From IMG/VR virus record IMGVR_UViG_3300038306_000069, positions 1-21,779 of that record: a DNA stretch of 21,779 bases. One strand, 5' to 3'. Of the stretch, positions 1,189 through 20,588 are shown piece by piece. A program made the position numbers and the translations under genes. The notes under the pieces are model-generated. The model made no database searches, was not told the DNA's origin, and saw nothing but the letters and a program-made list of their open reading frames with translations. Origin of the DNA: a virus. Within the stretch, counting starts at the first letter, position 1. Each line of letters starts with the position of its first letter.

Positions 1189-4157
1189 TAGAGTACGGAG
1201 CCTCGCTTAATAATGTTGAAGGTTGTTGTGCTATCGAAGATAGATTGTGGGTCTGAAATCTCTTCACTATCCTTTAGCTCTAGTAAAGCTCGCATCTCAT
1301 CTTCTTTAGAGTAGCGATGCTTCGGTACAGAGTCTAGCATATAGTCTTGGAATACCCGCGTTGCTCGTATGGTTATGTACCGCTTCGCGGCTTCAGGGAC
1401 CTCATCGAACTTGAAGAGATATACGACGGTAGCTGTTTCACTTAGAGCTGAAGAGAATACAAAAGTATTATTCTCTTTATCATAGAGGCTGCGCTCCCCT
1501 GATTCAGGGTTGTGGCGTATCGTGTAGTCACTGCCACTTACGTTCACGCTTACGATGGTTTTATCTGAGAGTACGATGTTGTTGGCATCTCTGCCTACAC
1601 GCATTCCGTTCTCTCCGAAAGGATATGTGGTTAGTTGTCCAGCAGGGATTCCTGCAGAGCCGCTAGTAGACTGATACTCCATGTTAATTAGATTACCATT
1701 ACCTGATGCCCCTACGACATCTTGCGTAACTAATACATTCTTCAGATGCCTAACGTGTTGGTCAAACGGTGTTACTTCTGAACTGTCCACCATGTAATCA
1801 GGGTGGTTCGTTGGATACTCATCTAATTCGATAATCCCTGCCGCATAATAACTAGAGCCTGTCTGTTTTACCTGCGCAGCCGTAACTTTCCAATCAGACG
1901 TGGCGTGAGTGTTAGCGAGGTTGATGCCTATAACAACCTGCTCGGCAAATTGGTCAGCAGTTGTGAAATTAACTCTAGCACCTTCATCAGCTATAGTACC
2001 ATCTAGGATACTAATGTAGCTTGAGCCTCCGTCCGAGGGAGTGCTATCTCCTGTAGTGTGGCTAGTGGTCGCTGTAAATGTAAACTTCCATTGAAATCCA
2101 TTTGCATCAGTAATCCATAGTTGGTCACCTGAGTCTACATCATCTTCACAAGAAATCATACCCTGCGCACCTACGCCTGTAGATAACGGGAAGGAAACCT
2201 TAGAGTCTGTGTTGAAGTGCCAACCTCTAGCCTGAACCTCACGGGAGGTAGACATTAGAGTATCTTCAGCCTCCCTAGCTGCTGCGTCTGTGCCTGAGTC
2301 AAACACTACCTTAGAGATAGGTTGCTTCTGTATAGACCTTAATAGCTTGTTCACGGACTCTAGTGTGGATGACTGTGCATCCTCGTCTGTAGTGGTAGCC
2401 ATCGCAGCCTTCTGTCTCTTCTCGTATGCCAAGAGAACCTGCAAGGCTTTATCCTCTTCAGAGGCTTTCTCACTTTCTACCCTCTGCTGTTGTTCAGGAG
2501 TATCTTTAAGAGTACGGGCTTTTGTTAAAGCTCTTTCTTTGATGTAAGTCCTTAGAGGCATCCCTAAGTCGCTCAGTGCGTAGATAGAGGTGAATACAGC
2601 ACCTAACATCGGGAGAGAGAATTTAGAAGAATTTGTATCTCTATTGCGAAGGCGTTGTGTAGATACTGACTCGTCATACTCAACTGCAAGGTTAAACCCC
2701 CGAGCTGATACAGCTACTACATCGTTGCCTACATATAAGGAAGTACCATCCGCATTTAGGGGGATAGTGACGCCATATCTCGTATTATCATGCCAACCGT
2801 GCGACTGCACTTCTTTGCTCGTGGCTAGTAGTAGTTCTTGAGCTTCTAGTACTACCTTATCTACTCCGAAGTCTAGCATCTGTTGAGTAGCGGGCATCTC
2901 GTCCCACTCAGCTAGTATGCGGTTTACAAATTCTAGCTCTGTAGATGTTACTGTAGATGTAGTAACCACAGCAACTCTGCGCATCTCTGCGTCATGTAGT
3001 TGCAAGTCTTTAAGAGCCTGTGCTTCATCCTTAGGTATCTCAGGAGACACCGCAGAGTTAGGGGCTATCTGTGTACCTAAGTCATCCCTACTCGCTAGTG
3101 TGCCTGTACGCTCAGAAGCAATACGAGCAGCGCGTATCTTTACATAGTTACGCATCGGTTCCGATGTCTCACTAAAGCTGAGGTGTTGAATTACCTTAGC
3201 CTGTAGGGACGTTGTTCCGAACCCCGTAGAAGAGTTTGTGTCTAAGTCTATAAGGTAAGGAGCTGAAGTACCTGTAGTCTCCACATCATCACGGACACCT
3301 AAGTTACGCCCCTTCACGGAGACACGCATTGTGTCTACTTCGACACCGATTGTAGTTGAGGCTGTGAGTGTTTTATATGATGTATTCAACATCCACCCAC
3401 GGCTTAGCACCTCTCGGTTCACTTCATTAAGTATCTTCTTAGCTATTACAATCTCTTTCGAGGCGTTGTAGTTAATCTCACGGAGAGTCGTTGGACTCTC
3501 TCCCATCGCCATAAGTACGGCACTGACTCCCTCTGTTAAGGATGTTGAGGTAGTAGTGGTGTCATCTGCTGCTGTGGTCCTTGCAAGTAGGTCAGCATCC
3601 CTTGCTATCTTGAGGGCTTCTACTTCATCCTCTTTAGAGAATGCGTGATGCTCTTGACTTCCAACCATACGGTCTTGGAAGATTCGGGAAGCCTTAATTG
3701 TTATGTAACGCTTTACAGCTTCAGGTATACCGAAGAACTCTAGGTAGTAGCGTAATGAGAGCTGTGAGCTTGCGGGTTTATCCGCTTCAGGAAAAGTTCC
3801 TGTACTTCTCTCTAAGTCATAGACTATGCGAGAAGTGGAGGAACTTCTAAGAGTTAGGAGCCTCCCCCTACAAGCTACTGATATTACATCCTCTCTTGCA
3901 AGTATGTAGGTAGAAGCTGTAACCCAATTTAGTAAAGAAGTAGCATCGTCGGTTTGTAGTCCAATACCAAATACCTCATTAAAGTGCCAATCATCCGTCT
4001 GCGTTGCCTTTACAACCTCATCTAATACCTGCTTCGCTAATACCACATCACTTGAGCTACCCGCGTCTAGTATTATCTGTGTTGTTGGAAGTTCTCCTAT
4101 AGATGATAGGATAGTGTTTACAGCGTTAAGCTCGGTATTGAATACGGGATTGGTCAT
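1188..4157 (-). CDS. Giant tail tubular protein A: four tandem gp11-like modules
   Basis: T7 gp11 (196 residues) forms the twelve-subunit ring joining portal and nozzle. This 989-residue protein repeats the gp11 pattern four times. Module starts are near residues 8 (ELNAVNTILSSIGELPTTQ), 208 (TEGVSAVLMAMGESPTT), 406 (TELEFVNRILAEWDEMPATQ) and 598 (TLESVNKLLRSIQKQPIS). Each is followed 30-45 residues later by a W-x-x-N motif (DWHFN, RGWMLN, HGWHDN, RGWHFN). The module ends also repeat: AVKRYITIKASRIFQDRM (about 147-164) resembles AAKRYITIRATRVFQDYM (about 923-940), each followed by SKEDE. Module 4 carries about 200 extra residues (roughly 662-865). The ATG lies 1 nt after the upstream stop. 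The family and the repeats are clear in the sequence. A reduced chain number in the ring is inference. Confidence 0.9.
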   Translation of the reverse strand: MTNPVFNTELNAVNTILSSIGELPTTQIILDAGSSSDVVLAKQVLDEVVKATQTDDWHFNEVFGIGLQTDDATSLLNWVTASTYILAREDVISVACRGRLLTLRSSSTSRIVYDLERSTGTFPEADKPASSQLSLRYYLEFFGIPEAVKRYITIKASRIFQDRMVGSQEHHAFSKEDEVEALKIARDADLLARTTAADDTTTTSTSLTEGVSAVLMAMGESPTTLREINYNASKEIVIAKKILNEVNREVLSRGWMLNTSYKTLTASTTIGVEVDTMRVSVKGRNLGVRDDVETTGTSAPYLIDLDTNSSTGFGTTSLQAKVIQHLSFSETSEPMRNYVKIRAARIASERTGTLASRDDLGTQIAPNSAVSPEIPKDEAQALKDLQLHDAEMRRVAVVTTSTVTSTELEFVNRILAEWDEMPATQQMLDFGVDKVVLEAQELLLATSKEVQSHGWHDNTRYGVTIPLNADGTSLYVGNDVVAVSARGFNLAVEYDESVSTQRLRNRDTNSSKFSLPMLGAVFTSIYALSDLGMPLRTYIKERALTKARTLKDTPEQQQRVESEKASEEDKALQVLLAYEKRQKAAMATTTDEDAQSSTLESVNKLLRSIQKQPISKVVFDSGTDAAAREAEDTLMSTSREVQARGWHFNTDSKVSFPLSTGVGAQGMISCEDDVDSGDQLWITDANGFQWKFTFTATTSHTTGDSTPSDGGSSYISILDGTIADEGARVNFTTADQFAEQVVIGINLANTHATSDWKVTAAQVKQTGSSYYAAGIIELDEYPTNHPDYMVDSSEVTPFDQHVRHLKNVLVTQDVVGASGNGNLINMEYQSTSGSAGIPAGQLTTYPFGENGMRVGRDANNIVLSDKTIVSVNVSGSDYTIRHNPESGERSLYDKENNTFVFSSALSETATVVYLFKFDEVPEAAKRYITIRATRVFQDYMLDSVPKHRYSKEDEMRALLELKDSEEISDPQSIFDSTTTFNIIKRGSVL

Positions 4158-9603: not shown

Positions 9604-9802
9604 GTCCCTTCTTTCAAAACTTCACGAAGACGTAGCTAAAGAACTCTTAGAGCGCATCGCCACAGGCGAAGCCTCTACGGGAGACATCTCTGCGGCTATC
9701 AAGTTTCTGAAAGACAACGACGTGACTGTAGTAGTGGAAGAGAGTAAGCCTGTGATGAATTTAGTCAAGGCTCTCCCATTCACAGAAGCTAAAGAAGCGT
9801 AA
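9584..9802 (+). CDS. terS: Terminase small subunit (T7 gp18-like)
   Basis: A DNA-packaging accessory subunit that recognises concatemer DNA and works with the large subunit. It is 72 residues from the chosen ATG: MSNDNLKSLLSKLHEDVAKE, then LLERIATGEASTGDISAAIK and FLKDNDV. The HxxVAKxLLERI...GEAS..DISAAIKFLKDN pattern is typical of gp18-like small terminases of podoviruses, which are short and helical (T7 gp18 is 89 residues). An upstream ATG at 9533 would add 17 residues lying over the promoter palindrome, so 9584 is preferred. Its TAA overlaps the ATG of the large subunit (TAATG), which is the strongest support. Confidence 0.82.
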   Translation: MSNDNLKSLLSKLHEDVAKELLERIATGEASTGDISAAIKFLKDNDVTVVVEESKPVMNLVKALPFTEAKEA

Positions 9803-11466
9803 TGGAAATCCCTAACGAGCTGAAAGACTTTAGGAATTTTGTCTATTTAGCGTGGGACCATCTAGGTCTGCCTGAGCCTACCCCTGTACAGTACGATATA
9901 GCACAGTATCTACAGGATGGTCCACGGCGGCAGATTATTCTCGCGTACCGTGGTGTAGGTAAGTCATACCTCACGTCTGCCTACGTCTGTTGGCGGCTCC
10001 TCTTAGACCCATCCCTGAACATCCTTGTGGTGTCAGCATCTAAGAACCGTTCAGATGACTTCTCTACCTTCACACAGAGACTCATCAACGAGATGCCTAT
10101 ACTTGAGCATCTAAAGGCTAGACCTGAGCAACGTGACTCCAAGATAGCCTTCGATGTAGGACCTGCACCTGCTGCACACGCCCCATCTGTCAAGGCTGTC
10201 GGTATAACGGGACAATTAACAGGTTCTCGTGCCGACCTGATTGTGGCAGACGATGTGGAGTCCCTAAATAATTCAGAAACACAGGGTATGCGGGATAAGC
10301 TAGGTAACCTAGTGAAGGAGTTTGACTCCATTCTCAAGCCTGAGGGACAGATAAGGTATCTAGGAACTTACCAAACAGAGATGTCTCTGTACAAAGTCTT
10401 ACCTGATAGAGGTTATACCCCCCGTGTATGGACAGGAAGATACCCAAAGATGGATAAAGTAGCAGCATACGGTTCTTACTTGGCTCCTTATATCCTCGAT
10501 AAGATTACAGATGACCCGTCACTCGAAGGTACACCTGTAGACCCTAAGCGTTTCGATGAGGATGACCTTGTGGAACGTGAGCTATCCTATGGTCGTTCAG
10601 GCTTTGCATTGCAATTCATGCTTGACCCTAGCTTGTCGGATGCTGATAGGTATCCACTCAAGCTCAAAGACTTCATTGTGATGGACATAGACCGTGAGGT
10701 AGCACCTGAGCGTGTCATCCACTCCAATAGTCCTGAGAAGGTATTGAAGAACCTCACCTCTGTAGGATTTAGTGGTGATTACTTCCATATGCCTCTAGCT
10801 GTAGACGGTGAGTTCATACCCTACCGTGGTACGGTGATGACCATTGACCCATCAGGGCGTGGTAGTGACGAGACAGGTTACTGCATCATGTCGATGCTCA
10901 ACGGTTTCTTATATGTCCATGAATGCTCAGGGGTAGCAGGTGGATACTCGACAGAAACCCTGACTGCTCTAGCAGAACTAGCTAAGAAGTATAAGGTCAA
11001 AGAGATACAGGTGGAATCTAACTTCGGTGATGGTATGTTCAATGAACTACTCACGCCATACCTCAAGAAGATATACCCTGTCACCCTCTCTGAGGTAAGA
11101 CACTCGACTCAGAAGGAACGTCGTATCATTGAGACCCTAGAGCCGCTACTGAATCAACATAGAATCATTATATCTCCTGAGGTCATAGAGAACGACTATA
11201 GCTCTACTAGCCACCTGCCTCCTGAGAAGGCTCCTCAGTATAGACTCTTCCATCAACTCACTAGAATCACCACAGCTAGAGGAGCATTAGCTCACGATGA
11301 CAGGCTAGAGGTGATGGCTATGGCAGCTCACTATTGGGTCGAAGCTGTAGGACAAGACGTAGACGAGATGATGCAAGAAGACAAGGCTGAAAGACTAAAT
11401 AAGGAACTAGAAAGCTTTATGGCGAATGCTATCGGATATACTAAAGACAATACCTCTTGGTTGTAG
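9802..11466 (+). CDS. terL: Terminase large subunit (T7 gp19-like)
   Basis: ATP-driven packaging motor plus headful/terminal-repeat nuclease, docking on the portal. It is 554 residues against 586 in T7. Walker A is AYRGVGKS (48-55) and Walker B is LIVADDVE (146-153), with D150/D151 likely Mg and catalytic carboxylates. The RNase H-like nuclease domain begins with MTIDPSGRGSDETGY (D349), then QVESNFGDGMF, and the late acidic motif AHDDRLEV (D499/D500). The gene is coupled to terS. It is followed by a terminator and the repeat-rich region, the same relation T7 gene 19 has to its right end. Strand is opposite to the structural genes, unlike T7. Confidence 0.97.
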   Translation: MEIPNELKDFRNFVYLAWDHLGLPEPTPVQYDIAQYLQDGPRRQIILAYRGVGKSYLTSAYVCWRLLLDPSLNILVVSASKNRSDDFSTFTQRLINEMPILEHLKARPEQRDSKIAFDVGPAPAAHAPSVKAVGITGQLTGSRADLIVADDVESLNNSETQGMRDKLGNLVKEFDSILKPEGQIRYLGTYQTEMSLYKVLPDRGYTPRVWTGRYPKMDKVAAYGSYLAPYILDKITDDPSLEGTPVDPKRFDEDDLVERELSYGRSGFALQFMLDPSLSDADRYPLKLKDFIVMDIDREVAPERVIHSNSPEKVLKNLTSVGFSGDYFHMPLAVDGEFIPYRGTVMTIDPSGRGSDETGYCIMSMLNGFLYVHECSGVAGGYSTETLTALAELAKKYKVKEIQVESNFGDGMFNELLTPYLKKIYPVTLSEVRHSTQKERRIIETLEPLLNQHRIIISPEVIENDYSSTSHLPPEKAPQYRLFHQLTRITTARGALAHDDRLEVMAMAAHYWVEAVGQDVDEMMQEDKAERLNKELESFMANAIGYTKDNTSWL

Positions 11467-11899
11467 AAAAATATTTATACCCTTACCCCTAGAGAAAGAC
11501 AAATCTCTGTGGTACGCTAGACCATATGCGCGGTAGACAGATACCTCTAAGTATACTAGAGAGTAACTACCACCCCTTAGTTCCCCTTTTAGGGGAGGAA
11601 AGGAGATAAGTAGTAGGTACTCTAGAGAACCTAAGAGTAATCCTTCCCTCTACCCTACTCTCCATCATGGGATTATGAGGAAGTATATTGGGTCTAATAG
11701 TCCCTCCATGAGCTGAGCGTTATGCTCGCTCCCTGCAATACTCCACGGGGAAATACCTTGGGAGGTAGGTTCCCACAGGGTTTTGTTTTGTTTACCTAGG
11801 GTATGGAGGGTCCATAAAAATTACAGAAAAATACGAGCGGGTATATATATGACCCCGCCTCGCAGAGTTCCCCCATAGCCCCCCTGCTCTCATGGGCTA
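11467..11899. other. Noncoding region after terminase, part 1 (terminator and hairpins)
   Basis: No convincing gene. It contains an intrinsic terminator (11756-11793), a CCCCT-TTT-AGGGG hairpin (11583-11595), a GC-rich arm pair around an AT tract near 11837-11858, and the 7-bp hairpin ATAGCCC/GGGCTAT (11875-11900) that abuts the first 14-bp repeat. By T7 analogy the right genome end and packaging signals should lie in or just beyond this stretch. No cut position can be read from the sequence alone. Confidence 0.5.
11756..11793 (+). terminator. Intrinsic terminator after terL
   Basis: CCTTGGGA (11756-11763) pairs with TCCCA-C-AGG (11771-11779, one bulged C) around a 7-nt loop, followed by GTTTTGTTTTGTTT. 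A stem plus T-rich tail is the classic form and would end rightward terminase transcripts before the genome-end region. Confidence 0.7.
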
Positions 11900-12349
11900 T
11901 TTGCAACATCCTATCGGCACTCCTTTGCAACATCCTAGCTTTGCAATATCCTAACGAGCCTGCGGTCTTTGCAACATCCTAGCGAGCCTGCGAGGCTATA
12001 AAATCCCTTTATTATCCTTGACTTATACCGACGCATCGCTAGGGGCTTCCTAGACCTACCCTCGCCCTGCTGTACGCCTGCTGTATCGCCTGTCTTTGCA
12101 ACATACTATAGAGCCGTCGTAAGTCGTTACAGGCACTAGACTTACGCACGCATCGACGGAGAATAGCCTGCGGTGTCCTGTGCTGTCCGTAGCACCCCTA
12201 CCCGATTAACTACCCTCTTGACATATCGAACGGCTATGTATGCCCTGTTTATGAGCGAGCGTAAGTCCTGCTCTCATAACGACTTATGACCGTTAGGTTC
12301 TGAGGGCTGTTTGATTTGCAATATTCTATCCCTGATTTGCAATATCCTA
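11900..12349 (+). repeat. Iterated 14-bp repeat TTTGCAAYATYCTA, seven copies
   Basis: Copies start at 11900, 11924, 11940, 11968, 12095 (A for C at position 11), 12315 and 12336, all on the + strand. The third and fourth extend to 28-bp units sharing CGAGCCTGCG. The last two form a 21-bp tandem (TGATTTGCAATATYCTATCCC, one difference). Iterated short motifs beside the terminus recall the SRL/SRR repeats flanking the T7 terminal repeat, and also resemble iterons. A packaging, end-processing or initiation role is inference. Confidence 0.8.
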
Positions 12350-12393
12350 TCCCAAATACAGCCGTCCTAAGTCGTTACAGGCACTAGACTTAC
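12113..12393 (+). repeat. Repeated dyad CGTAAGTC-N13-GACTTAYG and 33-bp direct repeat
   Basis: Three dyads share the same arms and the same 13-nt spacer. The sites are 12118-12146 (8-bp arms), 12260-12288 (CGTAAGTC/GACTTATG, different spacer sequence) and 12368-12392 (6-bp arms). Sites 1 and 3 belong to a 33-bp direct repeat (12113-12145 and 12361-12393, one difference) that includes the spacer. The middle site overlaps a second inverted repeat, TTATGAG (12249-12255)/CTCATAA (12273-12279). Conserved spacing with a changed spacer sequence points to a protein-binding dyad or a hairpin of fixed loop size. Confidence 0.75.
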
Positions 12394-12480
12394 AGCGTCC
12401 ACGCACAGCCATTTTAAGCACCCTCTCATCGTCTTTACGGGTAACCCTATTGACTACCCACATTAAGGACGAACGCAGAT

Positions 12481-12541
12481 TCAGTCATAACCCCTTGTAA
12501 ACAAAGGACTTAGGGGCGTCAGTCGTAACCCCTTTGTTTAC
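12481..12541. repeat. Direct and inverted repeat pair
   Basis: GTAAACAAAGG (12497-12507) and CCTTTGTTTAC (12531-12541) are perfect 11-bp inverted arms 23 nt apart. TCAGTCRTAACCCCTT occurs at 12481-12496 and again at 12519-12534, so direct and inverted symmetry interlock. TTTGTTTACCTA also recurs at 11787-11798. Function unknown; possibly an end-processing or binding site. Confidence 0.65.
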
Positions 12542-12751
12542 CTATACTTAGGTGCGCTGTTGTACTCGATTGTATGCGAGATAGGCTATGCGTTTATAGT
12601 GCGCTAATTCTAGCTATTTGGAATTATAATGCCCTATTTAAAATACCTTGATTTTAGGGGTTGTTGCCTTGACACGCCGTGCTATTCTTGGGGCATGAGG
12701 AAGGGACAGCCCACCCCCATAGCTCTTTAATACTCCTGCCTTACTTGTCGA

Positions 12752-12767
12752 TGTTCCACGTGAAACA
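12752..12767. promoter_or_regulatory. parS: Perfect parS site (ParB-binding consensus)
   Basis: TGTTCCACGTGAAACA is a near-perfect palindrome and matches the bacterial chromosomal parS consensus (TGTTNCACGTGAAACA) at every position. A chance 16-bp match in a 22-kb window is very unlikely. It lies in noncoding DNA about 80 bp upstream of the first strong early promoter. No ParA or ParB gene is visible in the window, so any binding would be by host ParB or by a phage protein encoded elsewhere. Match seen; function inferred. Confidence 0.85.
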
Positions 12768-12844
12768 ATTAGACGGTCAATTTCCTAGTCATGCGCCTAC
12801 CCGTGCCCCTGACAAATGAGACCCTAAGTTTCAATAATAAAACC

Positions 12845-12873
12845 TTGACAGGTAAGCACGGCAGAAGTAGATT
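12845..12873 (+). promoter_or_regulatory. Sigma70-type early promoter
   Basis: TTGACA (12845-12850), 17 bp, TAGATT (12868-12873). Predicted RNA start near 12880, with no start codon and good ribosome site until 13386, so it produces a leader or noncoding RNA of about 450-500 nt before the first early gene. Confidence 0.65.
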
Positions 12874-12879
12874 AGAGGA

Positions 12880-13345
12880 ATAAGAGGCAACAAGTAACCC
12901 ACCACACACAATCGGGTGAGCCTCACAATCAGAAGGTCATTAACAATTAGGAAGAAACGAGACGCTAGGAATAAGTGAAACTAAGCTGTAACCAAGCACC
13001 CATAAAGTAAAGACGGAAATGTGATTGCCGACCCTGTACTAGAACAGGACGCTAAAGGGGTAGAAGGGATAAGGAACAACATCATGGTAAACCAAGCAGA
13101 CCCCAAAAGGTTAGGGTAGAGGGAAGCGATAACGCTAGAACCCTTAGGACTGATTAAGTTCTAGTACAGAGATTCGGTCTATGCCGTGTACCATAAAGCT
13201 AACCGCTAAGAACGGACGCCCTCGACAAGCGTTGATTCTAGCGGGATATCAAATTGTGATAAATAGAAACAATCAAGGGGTGGTGTAGTAGGGTCTAAAG
13301 ACCAAACACCGCCCCTATTGTCGCATGGAAGATAGGTAACCATGC
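12880..13345 (+). ncRNA. Putative large structured RNA or 5' leader
   Basis: About 470 nt with no usable ORF lie between a consensus promoter and the first early gene. Many complementary arms are present. TGTACTAGAAC (13035-13045) pairs with GTTCTAGTACA (13158-13168), 11 bp, closing a 134-nt domain that contains AGGGT/ACCCT and AGCG-ATAA-CGCT. CCGCTA(A)GAA (13203-13212) pairs with TTCTAGCGG (13236-13244) over an inner ACGC/GCGT. AGGGGTGGTGT (13276-13286) pairs with ACACCGCCCCT (13306-13316, one wobble) over GGTC-TAAA-GACC. GCATGG/CCATGC (13323-13345) follows. The 13035 arm can instead form a local CCTGT/ACAGG hairpin. Unpaired parts are purine-rich (GAAA, GGAA, GTAA). The pairings are seen; RNA class and function are unknown. 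Confidence 0.6.
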
Positions 13346-13385
13346 CCGATGACGGATAACCTAAAAAACAATGTACGGAGGACAC

Positions 13386-13562
13386 ATGAATAACATTAAC
13401 TTAATCGCCTCGATATTCGAGGGTAGCACCTGCGCAGACTTCTCGGAAGTAGTGCTAAGCGACCCAAGACTGAAGGCGTTTTTCCTAGACAACATAGGAA
13501 GGGACGCGGTGCTAGTCGCTGAAGAATTAGAGGTACTAGCTGAAGATTTGGGGGTACTGTAA
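13386..13562 (+). CDS. Early acidic protein, paralogue 1
   Basis: A 58-residue acidic protein (MNNINLIASIFEGSTCADF, then SEVVLSDPRLKAFFLDNIGR). The ATG at 13386 is chosen because GGAGG sits 4 nt before it; an in-frame ATG at 13371 would start inside that ribosome site. It is the first gene after the structured leader. It shares a pattern with the next gene: NLI, (A/S)xEV, L(K/V)AF(F/L)xDI, then an acidic helix xDLxxL. Very early acidic proteins in T7-like phages include the DNA mimic Ocr, but there is no sequence evidence for that role here. Stop and next ATG overlap (TAATG). Confidence 0.65.
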   Translation: MNNINLIASIFEGSTCADFSEVVLSDPRLKAFFLDNIGRDAVLVAEELEVLAEDLGVL

Positions 13563-13774
13563 TGGCAACTATAAACTACACTTCTGCCCTATTAAAGCTA
13601 ACTAATTTAATAGAGGAACTAACACCCTTTGACGCACAAGAGGTAATAATTTACATAAAGGGCGAGGGATTATTGGTCGCATTTTTAGAGGACATCGACG
13701 CGCAAACGCCGATAGAGTCAATAGATGCAGATTTGCAAATGGTCTTACAGGACTTTACAGAGGGGGGCGAGTAA
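13562..13774 (+). CDS. Early acidic protein, paralogue 2
   Basis: A 70-residue acidic protein with only two lysines and no arginine. Segment TNLIEELTPFDAQEVIIYIK followed by GEGLLVAFLEDIDAQ parallels the preceding gene, suggesting an old tandem duplication. The coding end ACAGAGGGGGGCGAGTAA runs into an 11-A tract (13773-13783) just before the next promoter cassette; no T-rich terminator is seen. Translationally coupled to its neighbour. Function unknown; host-takeover or anti-defence roles are only suggested by early position and charge. Confidence 0.65.
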   Translation: MATINYTSALLKLTNLIEELTPFDAQEVIIYIKGEGLLVAFLEDIDAQTPIESIDADLQMVLQDFTEGGE

Positions 13775-13796
13775 AAAAAAAAACAAGATAAAAGTC

Positions 13797-13831
13797 TTGA
13801 CAACTAAAGGGGGCTAGGTTATTCTTAGCCC
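13797..13831 (+). promoter_or_regulatory. Early promoter cassette 1 with dyad over -10
   Basis: TTGACA (13797-13802), 17 bp, TATTCT (13820-13825). GGGCTA (13811-13816) and TAGCCC (13826-13831) form an inverted repeat that brackets the -10. The flanks AAGATAAAAGTC upstream and CTCACACTT downstream recur in cassette 2 near 14754-14808. The dyad may be an operator; this is inference. Confidence 0.75.
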
Positions 13832-13865
13832 TCACACTTAACAATAATAATGTACGGAGGTACAC

Positions 13866-14144
13866 ATGAAACTAGCAGAGAAACTAAAGGTAAGCAATAT
13901 GTACAGCAGAGGCGGTAACAAAGTTGCAAATCAATTCATAATCACGACGGCAACATCGGAGATTTTCCAAAGCTACAACACCGTCATAGCTATTAAGCAC
14001 AACGACGGACGAGTAGAACTAGACAACGCATGGGAGTACAGCGTAACAACGGCACGATACCGCAATATGTTTCTAGGTGAAAGCACCAAAGAGACTAGAG
14101 CGTTTGTCAAGGACGGTGCGTACACCGTAGGAGATTTGAACTAA
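13866..14144 (+). CDS. Conserved phage hypothetical protein (DUF8033-like)
   Basis: A 92-residue protein. The pattern GGNKVANQFIITTATSEIFQ, SYNTVIAIKHNDGRVELDNA, WEYSVTTARYRNMFLGES and the final AYTVGDLN is one I recognise from many unrelated phages as a small protein of unknown function; the DUF8033 label is from memory and uncertain. It is the first gene of promoter cassette 1, with a strong GGAGG and a leader (ATGTACGGAGG-ACACATGAA type) nearly identical to that of the first early gene. It is coupled to the next gene by TAATG. Confidence 0.75.
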   Translation: MKLAEKLKVSNMYSRGGNKVANQFIITTATSEIFQSYNTVIAIKHNDGRVELDNAWEYSVTTARYRNMFLGESTKETRAFVKDGAYTVGDLN

Positions 14145-14338
14145 TGAATGAAAATCTTAATAATGAGTGCGAGCAATGTAGCGACCACGGCTATTTAATT
14201 AGTAACGCGGAAGCGGGGCACAATGAGGTGCAATTCTGCCAAGAATGTAACCAATTAAGCAACGATGTGGAAGCGATTGGCAAAGCGTTAGCAGATGTCA
14301 TTCTCTTTTTGGCGATTAAAGAGGAGGGGGTAGTGTAA
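14144..14338 (+). CDS. Small zinc-knuckle-like protein 1
   Basis: A 64-residue acidic protein with two CxxC pairs: CEQC (residues 9-12) and, 20 residues on, CQEC. This is a spacing typical of a zinc ribbon. Segment CEQCSDHGYLISNAEAG parallels CDVCETDGYLMNINTEG in the next gene. A second ATG at 14148 is possible, but the TAATG overlap favours 14144. Function unknown; small zinc ribbons in early phage regions often bind host proteins or nucleic acid. Confidence 0.6.
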   Translation: MNENLNNECEQCSDHGYLISNAEAGHNEVQFCQECNQLSNDVEAIGKALADVILFLAIKEEGVV

Positions 14339-14541
14339 TGGATATTACTAACGCTATTCTTTACTCATCAGATTGTTGTTGGTCAGAGCCATATATAATT
14401 AGGTGTAATATGTGCGAAAAACTATTCGACGATGAGACTCATCTAGCGTCGCTAGAGGACGAGGGGGGGCTGTTTAACGGCTGTGATGTTTGCGAGACAG
14501 ACGGTTACTTAATGAACATCAATACAGAGGGGGCATTATAA
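14338..14541 (+). CDS. Small zinc-knuckle-like protein 2
   Basis: A 67-residue protein with CNMC (about 23-26) and CDVC (about 49-52), a likely zinc-binding four-cysteine set, plus a DCCW near the start. It shares the CxxCxxxGYL motif with the preceding protein, suggesting exchange or duplication of a zinc module. A GAGGGGG ribosome site precedes the ATG. The end TEGAL-stop lies in a 19-bp repeat (14524-14542) that also provides the next ribosome site and ATG. Confidence 0.6.
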   Translation: MDITNAILYSSDCCWSEPYIIRCNMCEKLFDDETHLASLEDEGGLFNGCDVCETDGYLMNINTEGAL

Positions 14542-14739
14542 TGCACCATACAGACCGCAAATTGTCGGTGCATAAAAACCTCGACAAGAGAATAGCAGAA
14601 GCACAAGGATACATTAACCGTATATATGAAGCCGACCATACAGCATCGGTGAAGTGTGTACAGATGATGAAGGCTAACGCAGTACTTCAAGCGTTAGTCG
14701 CACTCCGCGATGAGTCTCAAACAGAGGGGGCATTATAAT
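14524..14739 (+). repeat. 19-bp direct repeat at two gene ends
   Basis: ACAGAGGGGGCATTATAAT occurs at 14524-14542 and 14721-14739. In the first copy it encodes TEGAL-stop and supplies the ribosome site and ATG of the next gene; in the second the ATG context is lost. It looks like the scar of gene insertion or deletion. Confidence 0.75.
14541..14738 (+). CDS. Hypothetical early protein ending in TEGAL
   Basis: A 65-residue basic, helical protein (MHHTDRKLSVHKNLDKRIAE, then AQGYINRIYEADHTASVKCV). The start at 14541 forms a TAATG with the upstream stop and has GAGGGGG 7 nt upstream; an out-of-register ATG at 14490 inside the previous gene is rejected. Its last codons repeat the 19-bp sequence that ends the previous gene, but here the ATG after the stop is ATT, so no cistron follows. 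Unknown function. Confidence 0.6.
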   Translation: MHHTDRKLSVHKNLDKRIAEAQGYINRIYEADHTASVKCVQMMKANAVLQALVALRDESQTEGAL

Positions 14740-14766
14740 TCACATAAAACTTTCAAGATAAATGTC

Positions 14767-14803
14767 TTGACAAACAACGAGGGCTAGGCTAAGCTTAGCT
14801 CTC
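14767..14803 (+). promoter_or_regulatory. Early promoter cassette 2
   Basis: TTGACA (14767-14772), 17 bp, TAAGCT (14790-14795), in a near-copy of cassette 1 (shared GTCTTGACAA, GGGCTAGG, CTTAGC, CTCACACTT). The dyad GGGCTA/TAGCTC is kept with one wobble. It drives the 270-residue gene, whose AAGGAGAT ribosome site lies before 14858. Confidence 0.75.
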
Positions 14804-14857
14804 ACACTTTAAGGGGAGAAATAAACTTCCCTAACTCTAACATAAGGAGATAAACAA

Positions 14858-15670
14858 ATGACACAATCAGAAACAATCAGGGTAGAAGCGATAGCTACTG
14901 CCATTCACGATACGCTAGTAATAGACGGTTGGACTACACCCAACGACGATGAACGCGATACCGACGGCAACCATCGGTACTACCGAGTTTTCTCAAAGGA
15001 AGGGTATGCTGACATAACTCAAAGCTACTGCGTCGCTGACCCCGAAGCTTGGCGAAGCTATGTAACTTCCCTTACACTAGAGTGTGACGGTAAACTCATA
15101 CGATGCACAGACTATGCAACACCGAAGAAGCTACGAGCTTTCTTGGTTAGAGCAGACAAGCTACAAGACATAGCGAAGGCGAAGGCTGAACGCGATGATG
15201 CGAAGAAAGCCAAAGCAAAGAAGGAGTCGGACTACATAGCTGAGTATGTTAAGCAGAATTGCGCCTTTACTTGGGAGGAATTCTTCGAGGAAGGCGAAAG
15301 ATATAAAGGTCTTCGTGAATCAATGGTGGCTGAAGTCGAAAGACAGAACGAAACTCAAGGGTTCATAGGTTCTTTTAAGCAAGTAGTAGAAGTTAAGATA
15401 CCCTACGACGTAGCTAATTACGAAACTAGCTATGAGTACCTAGAGGAAAGACTTGCTAAAGACTTTAAGATTAAAATTGTAAGTGCTGATTGTTTAGTTG
15501 AAGAAGTCGAGCGATTCCAAGAGACTCTTGCAGGTGTGATGTTAATCTTCACAGGCGCAGAAGGGATAGCCTTACGAGATGCCTTCAGGTCGGCACATAT
15601 AATGGCGATAGCTATCAACGAAGCTGAGAGCGAAGGGCGTAAAGCCTACAAAGCATTGGAGGTGGAGTAA
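14858..15670 (+). CDS. Hypothetical early protein, 270 residues
   Basis: The largest unassigned early protein. Residues 1-95 look like a compact alpha/beta domain (SETIRVEAIATAIHDTLVID; YYRVFSKEGYADITQSYCVA). Residues about 100-125 are a charged Ala/Lys helix (DIAKAKAERDDAKKAKAKKE), probably coiled coil. A C-terminal acidic region contains CAFTWEEFFEEGERYKG and LEERLAKDFKIKIVSADCLV. No catalytic motif or membrane segment is recognised. A strong ribosome site and a dedicated promoter suggest substantial expression. The TAA overlaps the next ATG. Function unknown. Confidence 0.75.
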   Translation: MTQSETIRVEAIATAIHDTLVIDGWTTPNDDERDTDGNHRYYRVFSKEGYADITQSYCVADPEAWRSYVTSLTLECDGKLIRCTDYATPKKLRAFLVRADKLQDIAKAKAERDDAKKAKAKKESDYIAEYVKQNCAFTWEEFFEEGERYKGLRESMVAEVERQNETQGFIGSFKQVVEVKIPYDVANYETSYEYLEERLAKDFKIKIVSADCLVEEVERFQETLAGVMLIFTGAEGIALRDAFRSAHIMAIAINEAESEGRKAYKALEVE

Positions 15671-18038: not shown

Positions 18039-18226
18039 AAAACGAACAACTCCTAAAGGATTTTCTAGGGAAAAGATACGCTATCTTTATTGAACAATTC
18101 TATCAGCTACCTGTAGAACTCCGCCAACTCATAGGTGAGAACCGTGAATTGATGGAGGATATGTTGGCTAATAAGTTTGACTTAGGTACGATACTCTCAG
18201 CTTGCGAGCCTGAAGAAAATGTCTAA
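18035..18226 (+). CDS. Hypothetical protein with GTG start before RNA polymerase
   Basis: A 63-residue helical protein (KNEQLLKDFLGKRYAIFIEQ, then FYQLPVELRQLIGENRELME). GTG at 18035 is chosen because it overlaps the TGA of the MarR-like gene and has GGGAGGAAG just upstream; an ATG at 18008 lies inside the previous gene with no ribosome site. Its 3' end overlaps the RNA polymerase start by 8 nt, so it may couple translation. Unknown function. Confidence 0.6.
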   Translation: MKNEQLLKDFLGKRYAIFIEQFYQLPVELRQLIGENRELMEDMLANKFDLGTILSACEPEENV

Positions 18227-20588
18227 GCAAACTGAACAAGAACGGGAAGCACTCATCACGGGTGCTTCTCGACGCACGAAGCGCAACGCTAAACGTGTAG
18301 CTAAAGAGCAAGAGACTACGACTGCAACAGGTAGCATCGCGCTATCAAGAGCAATCGTACCTCTATCTTTAGGTATCATTGATTGGCTTGACGGTGAGGG
18401 TGCAGGGGTAGGCAAGAAAGTTAAGCCTTTCTTCAGACTGCTTACGCCTGAGCTTACAGCGACGGTGATAGCAAGGGCGGTACTCGATGGTATTAGTCGT
18501 AAGCGTAAGCGCACGGCACTCGCAGGTGCTATAGGCAGAGCGATACAGTTAGAGTATCAACTGCAAAAGTTTAAGGAAGAACATCGTGGTATCTTCCAAA
18601 CTAAAATGATAGAGAATAGGGATAAGAATTGGCAAGCTAAAGAGCAGGAGATTCTTAAAGAGATGCGCAGGGCAGGCATCATCAACAAGTGGTGGGATAG
18701 GAAAGACTTAATCGCTATAGGTATGACGGCACTCATGCTGATGGAGAAACATACAGGTATGATAATGTTATACCACAAGGTGATGAACGGTAAGCGCATT
18801 GGCTTGGTAGCACCAACACCTGACATGAAGGAATGGCTAGAGGAAAGCTATAGACAAGATGGACTGCGTGGTGTAATGTATGAGCCTATGATTGAACCAC
18901 CTGAATCTTGGGTGGACAACTACACAGGTGGCTACAAGCTACATGAGTTTCAGACTAAGGGATTCATTAACTCGAAGGAAGGTAACCACTATGAGAACCT
19001 AACCTACGATGACTGCCCTGCCGTGTTCGATGCGGTGAACACACTACAGGCTACGCCGTGGAAGGTGAACACTAAGCTACTCAAGGTGATGAAGGAACTA
19101 TGGGAATCAGAAGCTACGATAGCAGGGCTACCTAATTGCAACTTCCTAGATGAACCTAAGTACAACCCCGACTGCACGACTAACGAGAAGCGACGGCACT
19201 TCCGAGATGTACAGCGAGTGAGGGCAACTAACAACTTGAACGTGGGGCGCAGGTTCAGGCTGAACGAGTGTCTAAAAATAGCAGAGAAATTTTCAGGGGA
19301 AGATTCAATATACTTTCCTCACAGCTTAGACTTCAGGGGCAGGGCGTACCCGATACCAAAGGTATTCAACCCACAAGGTGATGACATCGCTAAGGGATTG
19401 ATGCACTTCGCTGAGGGTAAACCCTTTAAGGATGACGGTAGCAAATGGTTTCTTATACACGGTGCGAACCTGTTTGGTATCAAAGGTACGCTAGGTAAGA
19501 GAGTCGAGAAGATACTAGCGATGCAACTGCTATGTAAGTCGAGCGCATCTGACCCGATGAACCAACTGCATTGGGCTGAGGCAGACAAGCCTTTCCAATT
19601 CTTAGCGTGGTGCTTTGAGTTTGCTGAGTGGCTAGAGAATCCTAACTTCTCATCACACATACCTTGTGCGATGGACGGAAGTAACAACGGGCTACAAATT
19701 ATGTCGCTCTTGTTAAGAGATGAACAGATAGGTAGCGCAACTAACTGTGTACCACAACGTACACCTGCCGACATCTACCAAGACGTAGCTGATGTGGTGA
19801 CGCTACGGCTGAAGGCTAACCCCGATAAACATAACTTACGATTGTTAAGGTATGGTATAGACAGAGCGTTGATGAAGAAGGTGGTGATGAGCGTACCTTA
19901 CGGTGCAAGTTACTACACGATTTGCTTACTGTTTCAAGAGACTCTATACCAACGTCACCTTGAGGGTGAAGACCTACAGTTTGGTGGTAGGTTGCGTGAC
20001 TACAGCGCACGACTAGCCTCTGAAACATGGGAGGTTATTAACGAGATGATGCCAAGAGCAATGGAGCTGATGGCATGGGTGAAAGGAAAGATAAGACCTG
20101 CCATCACAGCTAACAACGAGGTGTCGTGGATGACACCGATAGGATTGAAAGTGTATCAAGGATACAAGCAGACAATCAGACGGCGTGTAGTCACAGCGAT
20201 AGGCTCGAAGATAAGGAAGGAAGCATACTTCCGTGACCCACTCGATAACTTATCGAAGCGGAATAACTTCAAGGCTATCGTGCCTAACTACATCCACTCA
20301 CTTGACGCGAGTATCATGCTCACGACAACTAATCTTATGGAATCAAAAGGTATTACCTCCTTAGCTATGGTGCATGACTCGTTTGCGACACACGCTTGCG
20401 ATGCGCCTGCCCTAGCTGAGGGGTTGCGAGATGTAGCGATTGATACATTTCAAAAGAATCTTCTGATTTCATTTGACAAGGACATCAGGCAATCATATCC
20501 TGATGACCATAACAAACGTTTAGCTTTCCCTTCAACAGGAATGTTAGACATCACTAAACTAAATAAGTCCTTATACTTCTTTCATTAG
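18219..20588 (+). CDS. T7-type single-subunit DNA-directed RNA polymerase
   Basis: Transcribes phage genes from its own promoters. It is 789 residues against 883 in T7. Motifs: LDFRGRAYPIPKVFNPQGDD (about 369-388), CAMDGSNNGLQ with catalytic D486 (T7 D537), RALMKKVVMSVPYG with R549, K553 and Y561 (T7 R627, K631, Y639), and MVHDSF with H719/D720 (T7 H811/D812). The end SLYFFH is the aromatic C-terminal foot. The active site is complete. The missing 94 residues are shared between the N-terminal promoter-binding domain (about 50) and the region after the palm. Promoter specificity cannot be read from the sequence. The ATG overlaps the preceding gene by 8 nt. Confidence 0.97.
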   Translation: MSKQTEQEREALITGASRRTKRNAKRVAKEQETTTATGSIALSRAIVPLSLGIIDWLDGEGAGVGKKVKPFFRLLTPELTATVIARAVLDGISRKRKRTALAGAIGRAIQLEYQLQKFKEEHRGIFQTKMIENRDKNWQAKEQEILKEMRRAGIINKWWDRKDLIAIGMTALMLMEKHTGMIMLYHKVMNGKRIGLVAPTPDMKEWLEESYRQDGLRGVMYEPMIEPPESWVDNYTGGYKLHEFQTKGFINSKEGNHYENLTYDDCPAVFDAVNTLQATPWKVNTKLLKVMKELWESEATIAGLPNCNFLDEPKYNPDCTTNEKRRHFRDVQRVRATNNLNVGRRFRLNECLKIAEKFSGEDSIYFPHSLDFRGRAYPIPKVFNPQGDDIAKGLMHFAEGKPFKDDGSKWFLIHGANLFGIKGTLGKRVEKILAMQLLCKSSASDPMNQLHWAEADKPFQFLAWCFEFAEWLENPNFSSHIPCAMDGSNNGLQIMSLLLRDEQIGSATNCVPQRTPADIYQDVADVVTLRLKANPDKHNLRLLRYGIDRALMKKVVMSVPYGASYYTICLLFQETLYQRHLEGEDLQFGGRLRDYSARLASETWEVINEMMPRAMELMAWVKGKIRPAITANNEVSWMTPIGLKVYQGYKQTIRRRVVTAIGSKIRKEAYFRDPLDNLSKRNNFKAIVPNYIHSLDASIMLTTTNLMESKGITSLAMVHDSFATHACDAPALAEGLRDVAIDTFQKNLLISFDKDIRQSYPDDHNKRLAFPSTGMLDITKLNKSLYFFH

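Follow-up and report, generated by a model that had tools for sequence, protein, structure and literature searches.

What is the function of the roughly 500 nt without a gene that lie between a promoter and the first early genes of a T7-like phage? The window (the whole 21.8-kb virus record analyzed here) carries T7-type genes, including those for terminase (9802-11466), a single-subunit RNA polymerase (18219-20588), capsid, head-tail connector, tail tube proteins and RusA. A first-pass annotation had proposed that the early region opens with a large structured noncoding RNA, recalling the ornate phage RNAs ROOL and GOLLD. We find that the simplest explanation of the region is not a stand-alone RNA but a leader at the 5' end of the first early mRNA. 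The account that we consider reasonably probable is a structured early-mRNA leader of about 500 nt with a hammerhead-derived, probably non-cleaving module at its 3' end.

Genomic setting of the leader

The leader is located just 3' of the terminase gene, between a sigma-70-like promoter and the first early gene (start at 13386). The promoter, TTGACA-17-TAGATT on the + strand at 12845-12873, is as good as had been claimed and recurs at the same position and with the same spacing in two related phages, L128 (5314-5342) and L005 (2691-2719). The stretch 12880-13345 is also indeed free of + strand ORFs of at least 50 aa. Single-nucleotide indels relative to L128 break the frame at several points and there is therefore no conserved reading frame, which, together with the missing ORF, rules out a coding explanation. 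Judged from the promoter and the 3' module, the transcribed non-coding leader would extend over 12880-13363 on the + strand. No + strand terminator was found between it and the first gene, so the RNA should continue into the mRNA. The first gene (13386-13562, + strand) is preceded by GGAGG, is conserved in L128, and encodes an acidic protein of 58 aa for which no Pfam match was found.

Relatives were sought in IMG/VR by terminase, RNA polymerase and one early protein. These scans gave few close relatives (L002, L128, L005, L007 and L004), besides a contig (L082/L125) that is identical to the window across 11467-14900 with zero differences. Long structured leaders are present also in L005, L007 and L002. 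The leader appears replaceable within the phage group because L002, with a terminase 93% identical to that of the window, has a long structured leader without the 3' module, and L004 has only a short leader. An anti-restriction gene is located early in L005 and L002. BLAST of the leader against phage and plasmid records returned nothing relevant, and no tRNA was found in the window.

Several other elements surround the leader. Downstream of terminase, seven copies of TTTGCAAYATNCTA are found at 11899-12351, and copies occur in the equivalent non-coding stretch of L002, L005 and L007; they are candidate phage promoters, origin iterons or a genome-end signal. A 38-nt direct repeat (12108-12145 and 12356-12393, 95%) has an inverted partner near 12255-12290, and the segment 12201-12400 in this repeat region has a low folding energy on both strands. 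A perfect 15-nt complement between 11643-11657 and 13112-13126 is probably coincidental, because L002 has the first arm but lacks the leader, and in L128 the second arm occurs without its partner. On the early side, the first two early proteins (13386-13774) are small and acidic, without Pfam matches, and by analogy with T7 Ocr they are possible DNA-mimic anti-defense proteins. An intergenic repeat upstream of early genes (13784-13839 and 14754-14809, 84% over 56 bp) is shared with L002 and L128, and its copy at 13797-13825 contains TTGACA-17-TATTCT. In L004 (2900-6274), early genes begin after AACCCAAATTAAAAACATG without a Shine-Dalgarno sequence, whereas the window has GGAGG; this suggests a different host type within the phage group.

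Folding of the leader

The 466 nt at 12880-13345 fold at -125.8 kcal/mol, against a mean of -106.7 for shuffled sequences (z -3.45), and 0 of 100 shuffles did as well. Nearly all of this signal is confined to the last 150-200 nt. In a scan with 200-nt windows, 13201-13400 on the + strand gave z -6.6, the lowest among 64 strand-windows, and the - strand of the same segment was weaker (z -4.5). The segments 12801-13000 and 13001-13200 do not stand out (z -0.9 and -1.7, respectively), leaving the 5' 300 nt without a strong signal. The folding statistics, together with the compensatory changes seen in relatives, thus support the proposal of a structured RNA at this site, but the part with the best support is only the 3' 100 nt.

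Comparison with L128 shows how unevenly the leader is preserved. Identity is 87% over 13067-13565 and 74% over 12360-12992, the latter including upstream flank, with insertions in L128 near 13000 and near 13038. The stretch with the 5' hairpin GAGGC...GCCTC (12884-12924) is missing in L128, as would be expected of a deletable peripheral domain. The A-rich segment that follows (12940-12992) is almost identical in the two phages; within it, ACAAUU is a possible pairing partner of AAUUGU near 13256, both motifs being invariant. Further downstream, the hairpin CCGCUAAGAA.../...UUCUAGCGG (13203-13244) is conserved in L128, with a pair probability near 1 in both sequences.

The long-range architecture emphasized in the first-pass annotation fared less well. 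The arms of the 11/12-bp helix that would close a domain at 13034-13169 do exist (13034-13045 with 13158-13169, 12 nt, 100% complementary), but the helix is not conserved as such in L128, where it is broken at four pairs, keeps one double change and is not predicted. Likewise, the repeats ACGCTA (12962, 13049 and 13132) and CCAAGCA (12992 and 13092) are present but mostly absent from L128, and we rejected both helix and repeats as conserved features. The terminal hairpin that had been described is present. As for the two partners proposed for the arm at 13035, both pairings can be drawn, the alternative being 13135-13141 with 13158-13164. Between the two sequences compared, the shared arm 13158-13164 varies in concert with both partners (U>C at 13160, A>G at 13139 and 13043), a single event that is suggestive of two mutually exclusive pairings.

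A conserved module at the 3' end

The best-supported part of the leader is a module at 13266-13363 with the order GAAACAAU-AAGG-hairpin-AUUGUC, followed by hairpin B, mini-hairpin C and, base-paired to loop B, the tail. Hairpin A (13266-13322), at the position of stem III in a type II hammerhead, runs from GAAAC-AAU to AUUGUC with the pairing GGGGUGGUG/CACCGCCCC, an internal loop UAGUAG/AAA and the inner stem GGUC-UAAA-GACC. Hairpin B (13323-13345), at the stem I position, is closed by GCAUGG/CCAUGC, for which L128 has GCGCGG/CCGCGC. Mini-hairpin C (13346-13355) reads CCG-AUGA-CGG in the window and CGU-GAAA-ACG in L128, and occupies the site of the hammerhead core CUGAUGA. A pseudoknot is formed by UAGGU in loop B (13333-13337) and ACCUA in the tail (13359-13363). 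Its 3' end lies about 10 nt before the GTACGGAGG of the first gene, and no part of the module overlaps the ribosome-binding site.

Five modules were found in four phages: one each in the window, L128 and L007, and two in L005 (at 3227 and 3721, here L005a and L005b). Hairpin A carries the signature UAGUAG-GNNC-UANA-GNNC-AA(A/G), which starts with CAGUAG in L128, is absent in L005b and occurs twice in L007. MAFFT alignment of the five modules was poor in hairpin B, so the helices were placed manually, sequence by sequence. The comparison therefore tests consistency and is no statistical test of covariation. With helices set in this way, six helices (five in L005b) were found in all five modules with one mismatch overall, and nearly all stem positions changed among the modules, except those in the outermost stem of hairpin A. 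The pseudoknot, UAGGU/ACCUA in the window, is compensated in the relatives: AGGC/GCCU in L128, UAGGC/GCCUA and AGGCUG/CAGCCU in L005, and GGGAGC/GCUCCC in L007.

Between the window and L128, all four pairs of the 3' part that changed on both sides still pair, two in hairpin B (13325/13343 and 13326/13342) and two in mini-hairpin C (13347/13354 and 13348/13353). Besides these double changes, the pseudoknot went from AGGU/ACCU to AGGC/GCCU. Only one of four one-sided changes keeps its pair; the other three, in hairpin A of L128, break pairs. The presence of G-U pairs in several helices favors RNA of the + strand. Covariation rests on few events because only four related phages are known, but comparison of their sequences shows that the structure of the module is conserved across them.

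A pattern scan of 2.9 million viral contigs recovered well-paired copies only in the window, L128, L005 and L007. Matches in other viruses were mostly coding-looking chance hits without a good outer and inner stem together. The 25 bacterial and archaeal matches likewise look like chance, since a full inner stem never occurred with a good outer stem.

Relation to hammerhead ribozymes

Both L005 modules match the Hammerhead_II model (RF02276), scoring 32.5 and 32.3 bits at an E-value of about 2e-4, slightly short of the cut-off of 37. These copies (3223-3318 and 3716-3815) lie in the early region of L005, itself T7-like, and flank an ORF of 117 aa, one being located before the first gene and the other just upstream of ardC (PF08401, PF18818). 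The core is complete in both, with CGAAAC, GUC, CUGAUGA and the pseudoknot between loop I and the tail, and as predicted type II hammerheads both should self-cleave. A pseudoknot between loop I and the 3' tail is known from type II hammerheads and typical of them (PMC3088659).

The copy in the window gave no match to RF02276 at E up to 10 and hence falls below the gathering cut-off. It nevertheless follows the type II order, with stems I and III loop-closed and in sequence, and has the loop I-tail pseudoknot, which is a common but not universal feature of the type. The window copy and L005a have GAAACAATCAAGGG, ATTGTC, GATGA and CCTAA in common, and the shared GAAACAATCAAGGG...ATTGTC makes it likely that the window module is homologous to the L005 hammerhead modules. 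Of the core, GAAAC and GUC are present, with CCGAUGA instead of CUGAUGA. There is no stem II pair, C10.1 being opposite A11.1 where at least one pair is required. Because of these two deviations and the mini-hairpin in place of the core, cleavage by the window copy is most likely lost or poor. The hammerhead core is also missing from L128 (CGU-GAAA-ACG) and L007 (long third hairpin), which have kept the fold. Weak matches of 15 bits to Hammerhead_II in L007/L008 contigs were taken as noise, since control genomes also match, and a descriptor scan of the available loci for type I and III hammerheads gave one weak, unconvincing type I match only.

These comparisons suggest how the leader could work. 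Host RNA polymerase would read the leader and the first genes together from the promoter at 12845. In L005, cleavage by two ribozymes would then yield three RNAs: the leader, the first mRNA and the mRNA of ardC. In the window, the fold was probably kept while catalysis was lost, and the module would persist as a stable structure a short distance 5' of the first gene's ribosome-binding site, where it may shield the downstream mRNA or insulate its start from the leader. More tentatively, and with somewhat less than even confidence, we propose for the T7-like lineage that a hammerhead fold marks the 3' boundary of a fast-evolving leader, being catalytic in one phage and selected as a non-catalytic scaffold in others, with a mini-hairpin replacing the core. 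If so, a single genomic site, upstream of the first early and anti-restriction genes, would hold a natural series, with a predicted working hammerhead at one end and descendants that retain only the fold at the other. Such a series would make the role of hammerheads in phages testable by asking whether selection holds the cut or the fold.

Alternative explanations for the leader

The closest alternative is that the window module is an active hammerhead with a variant core, which would cut after 13322 and free a leader RNA of about 440 nt from the first early mRNA, comparable to the RNase III site of T7. In its favor, the window copy has an intact GAAAC...GUC, stems I and III and pseudoknot; L005 carries two clear type II hammerheads at the equivalent place; and certain natural core variants retain low activity (PMC3088659). 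Changes in the CUGA turn, however, left low activity in a tested hammerhead (PMC9901934), and the window has C for U at position 4 of this turn, lacks the 10.1-11.1 pair and can have C3-G5 occupied by mini-hairpin C. Since L128 and L007 lost the core though the fold was kept, and no Hammerhead_II match appeared at E 10, we regard an active ribozyme as unlikely. Quite unlikely, too, is regulation of the first early gene in cis, by a riboswitch-like or protein-binding element whose pseudoknot, or whose alternative pairings of 13034, 13135 and 13158, would switch translation. The pseudoknot does end about 10 nt before GTACGGAGG and three complementary arms vary in concert between the window and L128, but the module leaves the ribosome-binding site free, the switch is based on one concerted change and there are no known riboswitch matches.

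The idea that the entire 470 nt form one particle, a stand-alone ornate RNA with a function like that of ROOL or GOLLD, draws on the length, the A-rich linkers, the phage setting, the z-score of -3.45 and the long structured leaders of L005, L007 and L002. The likeness to these families was not upheld by covariance searches of the window and four relatives: ROOL (RF03087) gave no match in the five records at E 10, though the ROOL control also matched nowhere, which makes this negative a weak one, and GOLLD (RF02032) gave none at the same threshold. A whole-Rfam scan of the window found nothing at gathering score, neither ROOL nor a known riboswitch, and at E up to 5 only two chance-level matches on the - strand, upstream of the leader. 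With the signal limited to the 3' 150-200 nt, a long-range helix that is not conserved in L128 and no + strand terminator before the first gene, a particle is very unlikely. That the region acts as DNA, as a genome end, a packaging signal or an origin, and folds only incidentally as RNA is scarcely credible; the locus adjoins terminase, where T7-like genomes have their ends, and iterons TTTGCAACATCCTA lie in the upstream DNA, but pseudoknot covariation, G-U pairs, homology to the L005 hammerheads and the adjacent promoter all indicate RNA, and the + strand of 13201-13400 folds better than the - strand. The structured mRNA leader with a hammerhead-derived module therefore remains our preferred explanation.

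Comparison with known systems

ROOL and GOLLD are phage-encoded RNAs of several hundred nucleotides with at least one pseudoknot (PMC12286853), features that the window leader shares. It differs in being shorter, in having neither a model match nor a tRNA island, and in a conserved part of only about 100-150 nt. Hairpin A resembles the RT-18 motif (RF03021), a hairpin with a UAGUA/GAAA internal loop and a UAAA loop, but the match is weak (17 bits; gathering 41.3). Being far under threshold, it was rejected as an identity and reflects only a recurrent internal-loop motif.

With type II hammerheads the module shares the order GAAAC, stem III hairpin, GUC, stem I hairpin, (C-GAUGA) and tail. The predicted working copies in L005 stand beside phage genes and an anti-restriction gene, which recalls the hammerheads reported to flank ardA in a prophage-like setting (PMC3088659). 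The window module differs by the UAGUAG/AAR internal loop in stem III and by its fusion to a long structured leader.

The window is arranged like T7, with a non-coding stretch separating the terminase from the early genes downstream of it. The early leader of T7 likewise has several hundred untranslated nucleotides from a host-type promoter to the first early gene, and a structure lies directly ahead of that gene. In T7, an RNase III site lies ahead of gene 0.3 in this leader. The structure there is an RNase III hairpin, whereas that of the window is hammerhead-related. If our explanation is correct, T7-like phages would thus possess, in ribozymes, an equivalent of the RNase III step that processes early mRNA in T7.
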